DNA from: Methanobacteriota archaeon
GTDB taxonomy: Archaea; Thermoplasmatota; Thermoplasmata; Methanomassiliicoccales; UBA472
Assembly: GCA_021372335.1 (NCBI GenBank)
Contig: JAJFUR010000037.1
Span: 1-50,479 of the forward strand
Direction of reading: 5' to 3'
Length of the DNA stretch: 50,479 nt
Shown here: piece after piece, positions 1,785-6,563 of the stretch
How the letters are laid out: each line of letters starts with the position of its first letter
Position numbering within the stretch: position 1 is the stretch's first letter
Notes under the pieces: generated by a model
The model's database searches: none
What the model was told of the DNA's origin: nothing
Seen by the model: the letters and a program-made list of their open reading frames with translations, nothing else
Position numbers and translations under genes: made by a program

Positions 1785-3317
1785 ATGCTCGGTGCGGACC
1801 TCCTGCTCCTGCTCTACTTCACCCTATTCGGGATGGGCCTCGGGGCGTTGTCCGGCCTGGCGCCCGGAATACATGTGAACACTCTCGCCGCCCTCCTGAT
1901 GATCGGTGCCCCCGCCCTGATAGCCCCTCTTGAGGGGCTGTGCCTCTCGGTGGGCTGCGCGCTCTCCCCGGCCCTGCTCCTTGCCTGCGCGATCCTGTCG
2001 GCGGCGGTCTGTCACTCCTTCCTGGACTACATACCGTCGCTGATCATGGGCGTACCGGACGAATCGGAGTGTCTCTCCGTCCTCCCCTCCCACCGCCTGC
2101 TGCTGGAGGGAAAGGGGATGAACGCCCTGCAGGCGGCCGCCCAGGGAAGCCTGGTGGGGGCCATGGCCGGTCTCATCGCCCTGCTCCTTCTCCCTTTCGT
2201 CCACGCTGAGGCCGGGGAGGCCCTGGAGCGGATCTCCCCCTTAGTTCCGTGGATACTGCTGCTCATCCCCTTCCTCCTCTTCTGGGCGGAGAGCGGGAAG
2301 GCCAATCCCAAGGCGCAGCTGGACATGCGCGCCGGCCGTGCGATGCCGACCAATGTCATCTCCTTGAAGAGGCACGTCCCGGTGCACGGCGACTCCGCCA
2401 GGGTGATCGGGACCGTGCGCAAGCGGCGGGGAAGGTGGACCGTATGGACGCCCGCGCAGTCCTTCGTCATCCGCGGCAGGGGATTGAAGGAAGGCCATCA
2501 GCTGCTCCTAGGTCAATGGACCGTCCGCAGGGACAGACTGCCGCTCATCGGCTGGTCTGTGCTCCTTTTCCTGTGCTCAGGCGCCCTGGGCATCATGGCC
2601 ATGGACGGCCTTGTGCCGGGCCAGGACATCTGGACGGGGATGGAGGGCAACATGCTCATGCCCCTCTTCACCGGGCTCTTCGGCCTTCCCCTGCTCATCG
2701 GGTCCTCCCGGGGCCGCATGCCTGAGCAGAGCGGAGAGGCGGGCGCGCCCCCGTCCGTGACCGGGGCGCTGAAAGGGTCCTTCATGGGCGGGCTGGTGGG
2801 ATGGCTGCCGGGCGTCACGGCAACGGCCGGCGCGGTACTGACCACCATGCTCCCCCGCTCCCGCGCGGGGCCGGAGGAGTTCATCTGCACCGTGTCCGCG
2901 GTGGGCACCGGGGCGGCGGTGCTCGGCCTGGGGACCCTTGTCCTTCTCGGGAAGGGGAGGAGCGGCACGCTGCTTGCTATGCAGGGGGTCGTGCCCTCGC
3001 TCTCGGTCGAGGACCTGCCGGCGCTGTTCCTCTGCATCCTCATATCGTCCCTTGTATCATACTCCCTCACCATGCGCCTGGGCAGGAGGCTCCTCCTGCA
3101 GGCCCAGGGGCGGGACCTTACGGCGCTGAACAAGGGCGCGCTGGTCGGCATGGTCGTCCTCTCCTTTCTCCTGGCAGGCCCAGGTGGCCTGCTGCTCCTG
3201 CTGCTCTCCACCCTCCTGGGGATGGTGCCTGGAAGGGTCGGCGTCAGCAGGGTGCACCTCACCGGCTGCCTGCTGTTCCCCATCCTCCTTCACTATTTCG
3301 CCCCGTTCCTGCGGTAG
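1785..3317 (+). CDS. TctA-family (COG1784-like) archaeal membrane protein with soluble insert
   Basis: This 510-aa polytopic membrane protein resembles the TctA/DUF112 permease fold. The N-terminal half begins with a hydrophobic helix and the family-like GALSGLAPGIHVNT segment (about residues 17-30). A homologous-looking GGLVGWLPGVTATAG follows in the second half, fitting an internal duplication. Between the halves (about residues 165-250) lies a non-hydrophobic, beta-rich stretch rich in Val, Arg and Gly that could be an OB-like cytoplasmic domain; this is inference. No TctB or TctC partner is nearby, so a standard tripartite transporter is unlikely and the substrate is unknown. I chose the ATG at 1785 because the upstream in-frame extension is polar and uncharacteristic. 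The 3' end overlaps the convergent polymerase gene by 25 bp. Stop TAG. Confidence 0.7.
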   Translation: MLGADLLLLLYFTLFGMGLGALSGLAPGIHVNTLAALLMIGAPALIAPLEGLCLSVGCALSPALLLACAILSAAVCHSFLDYIPSLIMGVPDESECLSVLPSHRLLLEGKGMNALQAAAQGSLVGAMAGLIALLLLPFVHAEAGEALERISPLVPWILLLIPFLLFWAESGKANPKAQLDMRAGRAMPTNVISLKRHVPVHGDSARVIGTVRKRRGRWTVWTPAQSFVIRGRGLKEGHQLLLGQWTVRRDRLPLIGWSVLLFLCSGALGIMAMDGLVPGQDIWTGMEGNMLMPLFTGLFGLPLLIGSSRGRMPEQSGEAGAPPSVTGALKGSFMGGLVGWLPGVTATAGAVLTTMLPRSRAGPEEFICTVSAVGTGAAVLGLGTLVLLGKGRSGTLLAMQGVVPSLSVEDLPALFLCILISSLVSYSLTMRLGRRLLLQAQGRDLTALNKGALVGMVVLSFLLAGPGGLLLLLLSTLLGMVPGRVGVSRVHLTGCLLFPILLHYFAPFLR

Positions 3318-5449
3318 AACTCCCCCAATCTGACCTGGCCGAGATCGAAGGGCGAGAGCAGCTCGCCGGCGGCCCGGAACAGCAGTTCCTCGTACCGTCC
3401 GGCGTCGTACCCCTCCGTCCCCTCCAGGAACTGCGCCACCTTCACCTCCTTCCCGGGGGTCAGGACGAACTCGACTGTCTCCCCGGGCGGTGTGCGGAAG
3501 CCCCGGTCCTCCAGCTGGCATAGCGCGCGGAACTGGTCGTTCCTCTGCCGGTACTCGCTCAGCTCCCGCGTTATGCGCTTCGAAAGCACCAGCTTCTCCA
3601 GCGGCGTCTCCATGTCCCTGAGGTTCCGTACGAACGTATCCAGAACATCCAGCGCCTCCGGGATGCGATGACGGAATCCTTCGGCATCCTCTCCCAGGGC
3701 CAATCTGTCAAGCATGCCCTGCTGCAGTTCCCTGGCTAGCGTGCAAGTGTCCCTTCTGCGGAGGGCTATGCCGCGTACCTTCAGCTCCCCGTCCTGGAAG
3801 GCGCCATAGTAACGGTTCAGTGCCCCGGCGCCATTGGTCAGGTTCGGCAGGAAGACGATCCACTTGTACTCCCCGTCCCAGACCAGCGGTATGCCCATGC
3901 GCTGCCCTATCTCCCGGCAATAGGCCTCGACATCTCCGTTCCCCTCCAGCCACAGCGAGTCCACGATGCCGTGCAGGATCCGGAAGCCGCGGTGCTCGGC
4001 CACCTCCGCCGATCTGAGCAATATCTCCCGGCCATAGGCGGTGATGGCCTCGTGGCACTCGATACGGCCGAAGCGCGCGTTCCTGTAGCCCGTGTAGCCG
4101 AAGCAGGTCACCAGTACCCACTTGAGCACCTTGGCCCGCTGGTCGTAAATGGCGCTCCTGCACCCCCCCTCCCGCTTCAACCGCTTGAGGGCGATGCGCC
4201 GGCGGACGAGGGGCTCCAGCACCCTGCCTAGCAACCCTTGGCGCTTGGTGCAGGTCCAATAGCCAAGGCCGGGAACGGGCTCCCCGCCATCCGAACAGCA
4301 TTCACAGTTCAGCGTCTCCGGGGAGATGTTGTGACGGACCATTATGCTCGGGTACAGCGAGGTGAAGTCCACCTCCTGGACGCGTTCATGCAGCCCGACC
4401 TTCGGCTCGTAGATGAGGCCGCCCCGGTCACAGGCCACCAGCTCGGCGGCGGTCTTGAACCCCTCAGGCAGGTTCTTCTTCCACATCACCAGCGAGCCCA
4501 TCTTGGAGGCCTCGTTCACCTGCATGGCGCTGATGGCGCTGCCAGGGGACATGCGGGCCATGTCCTGCATCGATATGCGCGCCAGCCGGCAGAGGTCGAT
4601 AAGCCCGGCCATGCCCCCCTCCTGATAGATGAACGAGGAGCCCTTGTCCAGGTGGATGCGCCCGCGCAGCTTGTACGCGGGCGGTTTGTAGAGGATCCGA
4701 CCATAGGTGAAGTAGCTCTTGCCCTTGCCCAAGCGCTTTCCCCCCTCCCTGCCCAATTCCAGCTCCATCTCGTTGCGCGCGGCGCACCTCTCCAGGAACG
4801 GAAGGTGGAAGCTGTCCCCGCCATCGGTGACCAGCACGTCAGGGTCCTTGGCGCGGAGGGTTGCCTGAAGCATGTCCAGGATGTCCGCCTCCTTGCCCTC
4901 CATGACAGTGTCGTCGAGGGTGGCTCGCTTCAGGCGGTCCTCCAACGTCGGCATGCCCCGGCGAGCGGAGGTCTCCAACGTAAGCTCACAGGTGCGCAGC
5001 TCGGGCATCGGGTAGTCCAATCGGAACGGTGCGTCTAGGTTATGCCAGCGCTCCACATCCATTAGCCCCATCGGGAAGACCTTGCGGTACAGGAAGTAGC
5101 GGGTGTCCATGCGCATGTCCACGTTGAAAAGCGTGTGATCCCGGTGGCACCCCCACCTGTCCACGGTCTTCGCCAAAGGCATGAGGTTGCGGTACCCTTT
5201 GGGCGTGACCTTCAGCACGTCCTCCAGAGGTCCCGTGAGCCATGTCCGGTGCCTCTCCCAACGATGCTCCACGCCGGCCTCCTTCAGCCCGAGGAGGAGG
5301 TCCTGTTTCCGTTCCGCGGAGGGCTTCACATAAAAGGACGGACGGTACTCGCGGTCGGCGATGCGCTCCACGCCGGCCGGGGTCTTGACCCAGGTGACCA
5401 TCTCGTTGTTGACCTCGTCCGCATAGCAGTCCAGGATCCATCCGCGCAT
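3293..5449 (-). CDS. polB2: PolB2-type family B DNA polymerase with degenerate exonuclease and altered motif C
   Basis: This 718-aa protein is a family B DNA polymerase of the divergent archaeal PolB2 (Dpo2) kind, probably involved in damage tolerance rather than replication. Motif A is intact (DFTSLYPS, Asp361). Motif B is present but altered (K443 to FG at 450-451, with VTC replacing the usual NS dipeptide region). Motif C reads HGIVDS (493-498) instead of YGDTDS: the second Asp (497) remains while the first is Ile. The exonuclease domain looks dead. The Exo I region (about 154-160) lacks the DIE motif, and the Exo II region (208-219) reads TDGGDSFHLPFL. The gene is the last of a tight three-gene operon, starting 4 nt after the 79-aa gene. 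Its stop TAG overlaps the convergent TctA-like gene by 25 bp. Family assignment is by motif pattern; biochemical activity is inference. Confidence 0.85.
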   Translation of the reverse strand: MRGWILDCYADEVNNEMVTWVKTPAGVERIADREYRPSFYVKPSAERKQDLLLGLKEAGVEHRWERHRTWLTGPLEDVLKVTPKGYRNLMPLAKTVDRWGCHRDHTLFNVDMRMDTRYFLYRKVFPMGLMDVERWHNLDAPFRLDYPMPELRTCELTLETSARRGMPTLEDRLKRATLDDTVMEGKEADILDMLQATLRAKDPDVLVTDGGDSFHLPFLERCAARNEMELELGREGGKRLGKGKSYFTYGRILYKPPAYKLRGRIHLDKGSSFIYQEGGMAGLIDLCRLARISMQDMARMSPGSAISAMQVNEASKMGSLVMWKKNLPEGFKTAAELVACDRGGLIYEPKVGLHERVQEVDFTSLYPSIMVRHNISPETLNCECCSDGGEPVPGLGYWTCTKRQGLLGRVLEPLVRRRIALKRLKREGGCRSAIYDQRAKVLKWVLVTCFGYTGYRNARFGRIECHEAITAYGREILLRSAEVAEHRGFRILHGIVDSLWLEGNGDVEAYCREIGQRMGIPLVWDGEYKWIVFLPNLTNGAGALNRYYGAFQDGELKVRGIALRRRDTCTLARELQQGMLDRLALGEDAEGFRHRIPEALDVLDTFVRNLRDMETPLEKLVLSKRITRELSEYRQRNDQFRALCQLEDRGFRTPPGETVEFVLTPGKEVKVAQFLEGTEGYDAGRYEELLFRAAGELLSPFDLGQVRLGEFYRRNGAK

Positions 5450-5453
5450 TCGA

Positions 5454-5693
5454 TCAGGCCTTCTTGCGCAGGCGCTCCAGTTCCTTCTCCTGCTCCAAGA
5501 GGATAGAGAGCAGCGCCCCTTCCAGGGGATCGAGGAATGCCGCTACCGTACAAGCCGAGGCGTGCATGCGCACCTTGTCGGAAAGGCGATCGAACGCCGC
5601 ACGATCCTCCTGCGGAAGGGCGCGTCGAAAATCGCTCCAGCTTTGGAAGAGGGATTCCGAGGCCATGCGGTACGTTGGTACGGTGCGCCCCAT
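5454..5693 (-). CDS. Small conserved protein of the PolB2 cassette
   Basis: This 79-aa protein is predicted to be mostly helical. It begins GRTVPTYRMA, has a charged middle (RRALPQEDRAAFDRL) and ends in a Glu/Leu/Arg-rich helix (LEQEKELERLRKK) that could form a short coiled coil. I recall similar small proteins (MGRT-PTYR start, DPL near the centre) beside PolB2-like genes in haloarchaea, but could not search for them. Its ATG overlaps the stop of the RecA-like gene (TGATG) and the polymerase starts 4 nt after its stop, so translation of the three is probably coupled. No catalytic motif is visible; a scaffold or bridge between the polymerase and the RecA-like protein is inference. Confidence 0.75.
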   Translation of the reverse strand: MGRTVPTYRMASESLFQSWSDFRRALPQEDRAAFDRLSDKVRMHASACTVAAFLDPLEGALLSILLEQEKELERLRKKA

Positions 5694-6430
5694 CAGAACC
5701 TCCTCCGATATTCGTCCAAGGTGGTCTGGTTCGGCGGTACCGGTCGGTACATGATCTCCCGCTCCTCCCGAGGCAACGAGATGCGCACGTAGCCGGAGCG
5801 ATGCTCCACGCTGACCACGCGATCCGCCTTCTCATAAAAAAGGGAGCGCAGCCCCTTGCGGTACATCAGCTTCGCTAAGCCGTAGTTGGTCACCACGCTC
5901 ACGGTGCGGTGCTTGGACGTAAGGGAACGCAGCTTGCCCATGCCCCTTTCCATGAGCTTCAACGATTCATCCCAGTCCATGTCCGCGTCCTGGAAGAGGT
6001 CCGGGTAGCACGATACGATGACCATTCCCCCCCTGCTGCGAACAAGCTCCTCCTCAAGGGAGTCCTCCACAAGGGTGGACATCTGATAGGCGGTGAACGC
6101 CCGCGACACGCTTATGCTGTTGAGCACCTCCTCCGGCCGCAGCCGGAAGCGCTTGCAAATGTATGTGAGATCGTAGGGATTCACGGAGTTCCCCCCATCC
6201 ACCCAGATCACGTCGCGATGCCATTCGCGCACGAAGTTCACACTGAGCATGTTGACCAGGGCGAACAGCATCCTATCGGAGCTGTCGATGGTGGTGACCG
6301 TCCCCGGTGCCAGGCCTCCGAGCAGCTCGTCCACCGGAGGTATGGCGGTGGTGGCCAGCATCCCATCCGGTTCGGGGGGGAGGGCGCGGACCAGCGGTTC
6401 GGTCACCGTTTCGGGCATGGAGCGGTACAT
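5693..6430 (-). CDS. RadA/RadB-like RecA-superfamily protein lacking Walker A
   Basis: This 245-aa protein has the RecA-core layout of archaeal RadA/RadB. A VDELLGGLAPGTVTTI segment (33-48) corresponds to the strand and turn before the P-loop. VIWVDGGNSVNPYDL (74-88) matches the RadA strand that carries an acidic tip. VSRAFTAYQM (108-117) matches the conserved arginine region. The P-loop itself is gone: SSDRM (50-54) stands where G-S-G-K-T should be. The Walker B position reads VIVSCYPD (137-144), without the usual Asp directly after the hydrophobic strand. It is therefore probably a non-hydrolysing paralogue, comparable in role to accessory RecA-like proteins of mutasomes (inference). I chose the ATG at 6430 because it follows GGTGAG and a TATA box is correctly spaced. 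First gene of the polB2 operon. Confidence 0.8.
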   Translation of the reverse strand: MYRSMPETVTEPLVRALPPEPDGMLATTAIPPVDELLGGLAPGTVTTIDSSDRMLFALVNMLSVNFVREWHRDVIWVDGGNSVNPYDLTYICKRFRLRPEEVLNSISVSRAFTAYQMSTLVEDSLEEELVRSRGGMVIVSCYPDLFQDADMDWDESLKLMERGMGKLRSLTSKHRTVSVVTNYGLAKLMYRKGLRSLFYEKADRVVSVEHRSGYVRISLPREEREIMYRPVPPNQTTLDEYRRRF

Positions 6431-6458: not shown

Positions 6459-6468
6459 GGTATAAAGG
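6459..6468 (-). promoter_or_regulatory. TATA box of the recA-like/polB2 operon
   Basis: On the minus strand the sequence CCTTTATACC lies about 30-35 nt before the ATG at 6430, the normal archaeal TATA position for a short leader containing GGTGAG. It indicates that the three-gene cassette has its own promoter. No obvious operator repeat is seen. Confidence 0.6.
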
Positions 6469-6563
6469 GCTGACAGGGGGAGGTGGGTGAAAATGGGCGG
6501 GGACAGCTCAAAGGGTCGTTGTGCGTGTGCCGTCGATCGTCCTTTAGGACCAGGACCCCGAGG

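Follow-up and report, generated by a model that had tools for sequence, protein, structure and literature searches.

An iRadA-PPB2-PolB2 operon in Methanomassiliicoccales and a conserved promoter element with likeness to archaeal DNA-damage motifs

The PolB2 mutasome and damage-linked motifs of archaea

Genes for inactivated RadA-family proteins, for arCOG07300 proteins and for the family B polymerase PolB2 have been placed in one predicted operon (Makarova 2014, PMC4104785). More recently, Timinskas 2025 (PMC11791011) named iRadA and PPB2 and modelled a complex of PolB2, iRadA and three PPB2 as a translesion mutasome. In the models presented there, PolB2 contacts iRadA as RadA protomers contact one another, the MGRT arm of PPB2 lies between them, and in some members a clamp motif is described at the C-terminal end of iRadA or of PolB2. 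The Pol V mutasome of E. coli (UmuC, UmuD'2, RecA) likewise joins a translesion polymerase, a RecA-fold protein and a small subunit bearing an arm at its N-terminus. It differs in that its polymerase belongs to the Y family, its RecA is active and forms filaments, UmuD' is unrelated to PPB2, and the clamp motif is carried by UmuC instead of RecA.

To our knowledge, no regulator or operator is agreed upon for the archaeal DNA-damage response outside Sulfolobales. In Sulfolobus acidocaldarius, the hexamer ANTTTC at -44 to -39 is needed for UV-inducible promoter activity (Le 2017, PMC5817253). The same hexamer is bound by Orc1-2, on which the induction of Dpo2 (PolB2) depends in S. islandicus (PMC9738581). 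In Halobacterium, the motif TTTCACTTTCA was reported at radA1 and at three other UV-B-induced genes; sequences like it were noted at the radA genes of further haloarchaea and of Methanospirillum (PMC2556686).

The window analysed here, the whole stretch of 50,479 nucleotides of a contig from a Methanomassiliicoccales genome, carries an iRadA-PPB2-PolB2 operon preceded by a conserved element (Table 1). Genus names of Methanomassiliicoccales were not found by term search in the main texts of the published iRadA papers.

Table 1. Features of the operon and its upstream region in the window
Feature	Position	Strand	Basis or remark
iRadA: RadA/Rad51 core with inactivated ATPase site	5693..6430	minus	245 aa, ATG start, stop included
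Degenerate P-loop SSDRM, residues 50-54	6269..6283	minus	within the order-level stretch T-x-[IL]DSSDR
VDGGN, residues 77-81: family signature at the place of the RadA catalytic Glu	6188..6202	minus	alignment
RAFTAYQ, residues 110-116	6083..6103	minus	unchanged in all 52 aligned iRadA; RAYNSSHQ in RadA
VIVSC, residues 137-141: Walker B strand, Ser for Asp	6008..6022	minus	alignment
QTTLDEY, residues 235-241: PCNA-box-like C-terminus of iRadA	5708..5728	minus	sequence pattern
Conserved upstream element ATTTTCACCCACCTCCCC (ANTTTC + C-rich run)	6477..6494	minus	upstream alignments
TATA box TTTATA	6461..6466	minus	exactly 28 nt from the A of ANTTTC
PPB2 (arCOG07300 type), 79 aa, MGRT N-terminal arm	5454..5693	minus	ATG overlaps iRadA stop; name from PMC11791011
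PolB2, 718 aa, family B polymerase fold	3293..5449	minus	starts four bases past PPB2
PolB2 motif C HGIVDSLW: Ile for first Asp of DxD	3950..3973	minus	IVD at 495-497
PolB2 D268-K269, D(K/R) motif of the mutasome	4643..4648	minus	motif from PMC11791011

An iRadA locus in Methanomassiliicoccales

The first-pass annotation had read the leading gene of this operon as a RecA-superfamily core and had named structure prediction among the ways to check it. The AlphaFold2 model, built from 52 aligned sequences (pLDDT 87.7, pTM 0.85), shows a RadA/Rad51 core. RAD51/RadA chains were its top Foldseek matches (best E 1.4e-14), and VIA-align aligned residues 18-240 to the RAD51, RadA and DMC1 cores with Z of 25.0-26.2 and rmsd of 1.7-3.2 over 197-215 residues, among the matches listed. 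The Pfam Rad51 match (E 6.1e-7) is above the family cut-off, so that kinship with RadA is not due to chance; the RadB profile gave E 0.22, far under its cut-off, and does not support an identity as RadB. The RadA recombinase of the same genome (L001) shares the core fold (Z about 26) but retains GEFGSGKT, the catalytic Glu, the Walker B Asp and an N-terminal domain, whereas neither a Walker A nor a Walker B motif of a RadA recombinase is present in iRadA.

That annotation had also proposed that both Walker motifs are lost, with SSDRM as P-loop and Ser at the Walker B Asp position; both readings hold (Ser140, window 6011-6013), and the loss turns out to be family-wide. Relative to the genome's own RadA (L001, G000:C32; Pfam E 7.6e-88), iRadA has Leu/Phe in the Walker A Lys/Thr columns, Gly for the catalytic Glu and Ser in the Walker B column. 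The Gly at the catalytic position is an additional substitution that the annotation had not listed. We aligned 79 relatives spanning Methanomassiliicoccales to Bathyarchaeota (80 fetched, one below 200 aa dropped). None has Lys in the Walker A column (an approximate column, the genome's RadB aligning one column off), none has the catalytic Glu and none the Walker B Asp (one sequence being masked, X, at Walker B), from which it follows that the loss is old and not recent in this genome. The P-loop pattern [GA]xxxxGK[ST], a test independent of the column, was absent from all 80 iRadA ORFs. Three Bathyarchaeota proteins (L079, GHSTCKT; L082, GHSLCKM; L083, GHSPCKM) keep a Lys one column further on, in a loop one residue short, and have lost the Glu and the Asp as well; the P-loop has thus decayed to different degrees. 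The family has motifs of its own, with VDGGN, RAFTAYQ and Asp148 found nearly everywhere and DSSDR in the order; RAFTAYQ is presumably part of the pocket that accepts an FxxA-type motif.

The nearest iRadA to that of the window stand at 92% and 91%, the second coming from Methanomassiliicoccaceae archaeon UBA472. With dN/dS of 0.057-0.097 against four same-genus relatives, iRadA is under purifying selection and is not a decaying pseudogene; PPB2 gave 0.024-0.093 over four pairs and PolB2 0.070-0.115 over three. In genome G099, an iRadA frame of 856 aa looks like an incidental long frame and was set aside.

The retention of the gene in an operon with a polymerase, also put forward at first pass, is borne out by the same-strand arrangement iRadA-PPB2-PolB2, an order found in 64 of 80 relatives' loci. 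Among the other 16, five end within 800 nt, two have PolB2 with PPB2 masked or missed, and nine, all from Bathyarchaeota, extend over at least 4.7 kb yet show no PolB2, so that some hosts may use iRadA without PolB2. PPB2 begins MGRTVPTYR, with the MGRT arm and Arg at positions 3 and 9, and an MGRT-type arm was matched by regular expression in 66 of 67 PPB2, the 67th (L096) reading VGKS. The PolB2 model (pLDDT 89.7) has archaeal PolB as best matches (E 3.2e-44). On the exonuclease site, whose loss is one of the marks of the mutasome polymerase, the Pfam exonuclease match is partial and below cut-off. The window PolB2 combines the D(K/R) motif with loss of the first Asp of DxD, as is usual for the mutasome polymerase, and HGI[VI]DSLW stands as motif C in every compared PolB2 long enough to include it, five being cut or masked. 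An apparent PPB2-PolB2 fusion in L057 is an artefact of masked bases.

The C-terminus of iRadA carries, as a pattern, the putative clamp-binding motif described near the end of iRadA or PolB2. Unlike the canonical QxxLxxFF, it has no second aromatic; it resembles the ends of PolB (KLTLDDYF) and FEN1 (QMRLDMF) of the same genome, in which one PCNA gene was found. Q235, T237, L238 and E240 are invariant in 24 order-level sequences, and a C-terminal Qxx[LIM]xx[FY] is present in all but two of the 43 closest loci (41), the exceptions being one cut-off and one masked gene; shuffling the window tail yields the pattern in 1.2%. Among 37 more distant iRadA loci it matches once, at a non-homologous place. 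PolB2 was also considered as a second PCNA binder; its terminal QVRLGEFY makes a good box by sequence but is limited to the genus of the window, with the aligned position unconserved elsewhere, and was treated as chance or very recent.

Nothing that defines the iRadA of the PolB2 mutasome (arCOG07763, arCOG04294, arCOG08101) differs in the window protein: both have the RadA core devoid of the N-terminal domain, lost ATPase residues, the first place in iRadA-PPB2-PolB2 and a C-terminal clamp-type motif. The protein is of an already known kind, one more member, from Methanomassiliicoccales, of a described family, and the locus as a whole is very probably best explained as a three-gene operon whose iRadA is the non-catalytic RadA-like subunit of a PolB2 translesion mutasome. 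Following the published models, a beta-alpha loop of PolB2 would enter the pocket used for polymerisation of RadA protomers, iRadA would take the place of the next RadA protomer for PolB2, and the N-terminal arm of one PPB2 of the trimer would lie between these two proteins, close to the active site; structures were predicted here for single chains, the complex being that of the published models. The iRadA tail would in addition dock the complex on PCNA, and DNA damage would switch the operon on, together with radA, through the ANTTTC-TATA promoter. Damage induction is known from Sulfolobales only, which counts against this explanation.

The first-pass annotation had suggested a structural role, for example holding the polymerase on RecA-type filaments or on a sliding clamp. 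A structural role alongside the polymerase agrees with the one published for iRadA and the clamp part with the tail box, so that iRadA would most likely serve to hold the polymerase, with a link to the clamp. The filament part found no support. Tethering of PolB2 to RadA-DNA filaments by iRadA, in the manner of RecA, which Pol V uses (PMC11791011), would suit the shared RadA fold and the invariant acceptor region RAFTAYQ. However, iRadA has no N-terminal helical domain, its residues 1-19 being disordered in our model, and the published models give the RadA-type acceptor pocket to PolB2, the pairing of PolB2 with active RadA scoring 0.28 (PMC11791011); we regard such a tether as improbable. A similarly low probability is given to a site that still binds a nucleotide or another ligand, newly formed by DSSDR and VDGGN. 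Its appeal lies in D49, S50, D78, G79, G80 and N81, invariant in the 24 order-level sequences despite lost catalysis, in D78, invariant in the 52 aligned iRadA with G79-N81 nearly so, and in the loop Lys of the three Bathyarchaeota. Yet Lys, Glu and Asp are gone from their columns across the 79 relatives, the DSS part is replaced by GS or GD in distant members, and contact with PPB2 and PolB2 would explain the conservation equally well. Least probable, to the point of being very hard to sustain, is an operon serving replication initiation or origin control instead of lesion bypass, one of the suggestions of Makarova 2014: arORC2-type genes adjoin polB2 in many euryarchaea (PMC4104785), but none of the nine neighbouring window proteins compared with Pfam was Orc1/Cdc6.

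These nine neighbours are ordinary genes: two phosphoribosyltransferases, a TctA-like transporter, an RMMBL-domain match, TruB/Cbf5, cytidylate kinase, an EMC3-like protein, SecY and an L15-type ribosomal protein. An insert in one of the tested proteins matched the Pfam intein splicing domain below cut-off. Over the order, iRadA was found in 36 of 61 genomes at E 4.8e-17 or better (a looser tally of 42 includes RadA cross-matches), and in 1 of 16 in the family labelled f2. The search for a Y-family polymerase, which as a control succeeded for 11 of 14 known genomes, found none in the window genome (94% complete). Of the 61 genomes, several of them incomplete assemblies, 57 have none, the window genome among them, so that PolB2 may be the main translesion polymerase of this order. 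iRadA and the Y-family polymerase (4 of 61 genomes) were together in no genome; the cases are too few and the genomes too related for mutual exclusion to be claimed.

A spaced element in front of the mutasome genes

Seven same-genus operons share a nearly identical upstream block of ~50 bp, the DNA further up not being so. What remains of this block in more distant relatives is A-N-[T/A]-T-T-C with a C-rich run, and a TATA box whose first base lies exactly 28 nt beyond the leading A. Scanned with a loose pattern, 43 of the 80 loci have the element, including each of L035-L067, with three chance-like cases (L087, L096, L103). From the outcome of that scan we chose 39 upstreams (L035-L067, L070-L074, L078 and the window, with L044 omitted for its little upstream sequence); 37 have the element at exactly 28 nt, a count of mutually related sequences and not of independent cases, against 0.18 on average and at most 2 in shuffles. 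Each other spacing from 16 to 40 nt gave 0-2 occurrences, save 17 at 29 nt that are overlapping readings of the same TATA. Two loci outside this set, L086 and L106, have the element with a TTATAA box.

In the window genome, ANTTTC-N22-TTTAWA occurs exactly once, at iRadA, and with one mismatch 13 times vs 10 in the reversed control. Across the 61 genomes of the order, ANTTTCRSS-N19-TTTA was matched at 61 places vs 33 in the reversed control. By position, nineteen of these front iRadA and five the PPB2 of split operons; two more front solo PPB2 paralogues that have no MGRT arm (L209 and L210, with alignment scores of 124 and 194 vs at most 46 in shuffles). These 26 places make up nearly the whole excess of 28 over the control. 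The two solo paralogues, like the L212 frame, had no Pfam match. When the remaining 35 places were opened, four proved antisense to 23S rRNA, four front a DUF2797-type gene in four genomes (two Pfam-tested), one fronts mre11-rad50 next to herA in the window genome, one fronts an Hjc resolvase (G054) and one a TnpB; the last 24 lie in coding sequence, front unidentified genes or are unclear. Nine same-genus genomes had no strict match before a recognisable mre11, their three strict matches away from iRadA being L220, L221 and L267 (read by eye), and mre11 was left as a single case instead of a regulon member. As the strict pattern misses the iRadA box ATTTTCATCG of G005, this absence of mre11 is weak.

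In the seven genomes found to have iRadA and PPB2-PolB2 apart by 0.3 to 4 kb, a slightly loose pattern places the box before both iRadA and PPB2 in all seven; the PPB2 box lies at -65 to -69 from the ATG in L042, L043, L044, L045, L048 and L057, and is also found in G013. L041, whose genes overlap, has no box before PPB2. The box at both halves indicates that it follows the mutasome genes and not the operon start. These counts show a real element, coupled to the TATA box and concentrated at mutasome genes. By term search, the word promoter is absent from the main text of PMC11791011.

Relation to radA promoters and to other archaeal damage motifs

The hexamer was then sought at radA in this genome and 20 others, chosen because radA had already been located in them; one locus (L233, G059), whose start and promoter are nearly identical to those of the window genus although it belongs to another family, is likely contamination and was dropped from the count. 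A strict ANTTTC lies at -45 to -100 of the radA start in 11 of 20 genomes, against 1.6 on average and 7 at most in shuffles, and the reverse-complement hexamer was found once in nearly the same interval. The radA of this genome has ACTTTCGACCAACCCCC at -65, with the TATA at 26 nt, not 28. Among eight radA promoters of family f2, three repeat the box or a near form of it at intervals of 9-10 bp; G036, for example, carries three copies of ACTTTCGGT. The radA loci that have no strict hexamer are L236-L238 (near forms, G first), L240, L241, L242 and L246-L248, L242 having ACTTTCACTTTCAC at -73 if its longer start is right. The RadB, PolB, FEN1 and two Orc1/Cdc6 loci of this genome showed no ANTTTC with TTTA 25-30 nt on.

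Beyond these lineages, the 28-nt rule applies to 1 of the other 41 iRadA loci, 30 of which come from records titled Bathyarchaeota or its genera, and ANTTTC is over-represented upstream of these 41 (24 vs 7.6 +/- 2.4). An unbiased count over 34 non-redundant upstreams returned CACTTT, TTCACT, ACTTTC, TCACTT, TTTCAC and CTTTCA as the six most enriched 6-mers, all of them sub-words of TTTCACTTTCAC. The UV-B motif of Halobacterium, TTTCACTTTCA, contains ACTTTC, and its sub-words are the top-enriched 6-mers of this Bathyarchaeota-dominated set. The window copy is unlike it, being a single ATTTTCAC devoid of the TTTCA repeat, and what stands upstream of the window TATA is CATTTTCACC. The Sulfolobales element shares with the window the same hexamer upstream of the core promoter. 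Its position is -44 to -39 relative to the start site, whereas that of the window stands 28 nt above the TATA and is followed by a C-rich run, which would put it ~14 nt further upstream if transcription starts at the usual distance; this differing distance to the TATA counts against a simple identity of the boxes. As compared here, the likeness of the boxes in the three groups could reflect common descent, or could have arisen by chance since five bases are few.

We infer that the element answers DNA damage. The competing view takes it for an ordinary core-promoter feature of the order that says nothing on DNA damage. The fixed spacing to the TATA, the five defined bases of the hexamer, the offset from the Sulfolobales position and the occurrence before a few unrelated genes, such as DUF2797 in four genomes and a TnpB, all speak for this view. 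We nevertheless consider it rather unlikely, given the single exact occurrence in the window genome, the excess over the control across the order, with 26 of 61 places fronting iRadA, PPB2 or PPB2 paralogues, and the sharing of the hexamer with radA promoters. A damage-related element could belong to an ancient archaeal DNA-damage box, in which ANTTTC often has TTTC before it and has a C-rich run behind it, extending from Sulfolobales via Bathyarchaeota and Thermoplasmatota to haloarchaea (TTTCACTTTCA), with RadA and iRadA/PPB2/PolB2 as core regulon and Mre11-Rad50 and Hjc added in some lineages; we advance this tentatively, as a serious possibility that falls somewhat short of being the probable one. 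A search of open-access papers found none that links the Sulfolobales motif to that of Halobacterium or places such an element upstream of PolB2 operons, and Halobacterium is unmentioned in PMC5817253 and PMC9738581 according to term searches.

The promoter element weighs more than the protein in this locus. If iRadA-PPB2-PolB2 and radA share a damage-type box, one that joins iRadA, a translesion polymerase and an active RadA in Thermoplasmatota and matches the damage motifs of Sulfolobales and Halobacterium, the question of how archaea outside Sulfolobales respond to damage would be open to direct experiment in a euryarchaeon. If the box is indeed ancient, the Sulfolobus and Halobacterium motifs would be one and the same box, playing in archaea the part of the SOS box; among possible proteins that read it, a paralogue of Orc1/Cdc6 would come first. 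Two Orc1/Cdc6 genes are present in this genome: the nearest chain to one of them is that labelled Cdc6 homolog 1 (2qby_A), and the other is more divergent.

Promoter element outside the intact operon

In several Methanomassiliicoccales, iRadA lies 0.3 to 4 kb apart from PPB2-PolB2 (loci L042, L043, L044, L045, L048 and L057, and contig G013:C21), and in these split operons the promoter element found in front of iRadA is present a second time, ahead of PPB2. The element also occurs, in near-perfect form, upstream of each of two solo PPB2 paralogues in genome G017, both devoid of the MGRT arm; neither iRadA nor PolB2 was recognised by eye on the same short contigs.

Coordinates of the PPB2 and PolB2 features
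Feature	Location	Strand	Remark
Solo PPB2 paralogue, genome G017	L249:2617-2829	(-)	MGRT arm absent
Solo PPB2 paralogue, genome G017	L250:5584-5793	(-)	MGRT arm absent
PolB2 C-terminal end, QVRLGEFYRR	window 3293-3350	(-)	PCNA-box-like string
PolB2 insert	L058:8383-8883		167 aa in L058; intein-type ends

Within family f2, the radA promoters of three of eight genomes (L235, L236, L237) display the box, or a near form of it, as two or three direct repeats spaced every 9-10 bp and followed by a C-rich run, as if several protein copies bound side by side. Upstream of a DUF2797-type gene, a conserved ATTTTCGCGCA...TTTA or AATTTCGCGCA...TTTA was identified in four genomes (L217, L228, L269, L270), with the same distance to TTTA as in the element, and this gene may represent a further member of the regulon. 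Among the radA loci, the contig L233 (G059:C64) is almost identical to that of the window genus although its genome belongs to another family, and the G059 assembly is, judged from this contig, probably contaminated.

Polymerase partners and iRadA variants

No Y-family DNA polymerase was found in the whole genome of the window (assembly only 94% complete). Across the order, such polymerases were detected in 4 of the 61 genomes, all within family f2, most of which has no iRadA. In nine Bathyarchaeota iRadA loci (L084, L087, L088, L090, L092, L098, L102, L105, L110), PolB2 was not found in the 4.7-6 kb of sequence behind iRadA. PPB2 was retained in two of the nine. Locus L098 has a gene for a Y-family polymerase (Pfam IMS, E 1.8e-47) on the same strand, ~0.8 kb further on. 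Three other Bathyarchaeota iRadA retained a Lys within a stretch that resembles a P-loop and is one residue short (GHSTCKT in L079, GHSLCKM in L082 and GHSPCKM in L083).

PolB2 insert and C-terminus

An insert with intein-type ends interrupts 7 of the 40 aligned PolB2 (L058, L059, L061, L063, L066, L070, L072), with junctions LLVT|C...THN|CFGYTGY, and five more (L060, L064, L067, L071, L073) likely carry it, judging by ORF length. Its match to the Pfam intein splicing domain (E 8.6e-4) was under the cut-off. The PCNA-box-like string ending the window PolB2 was observed only in the window's own genus.
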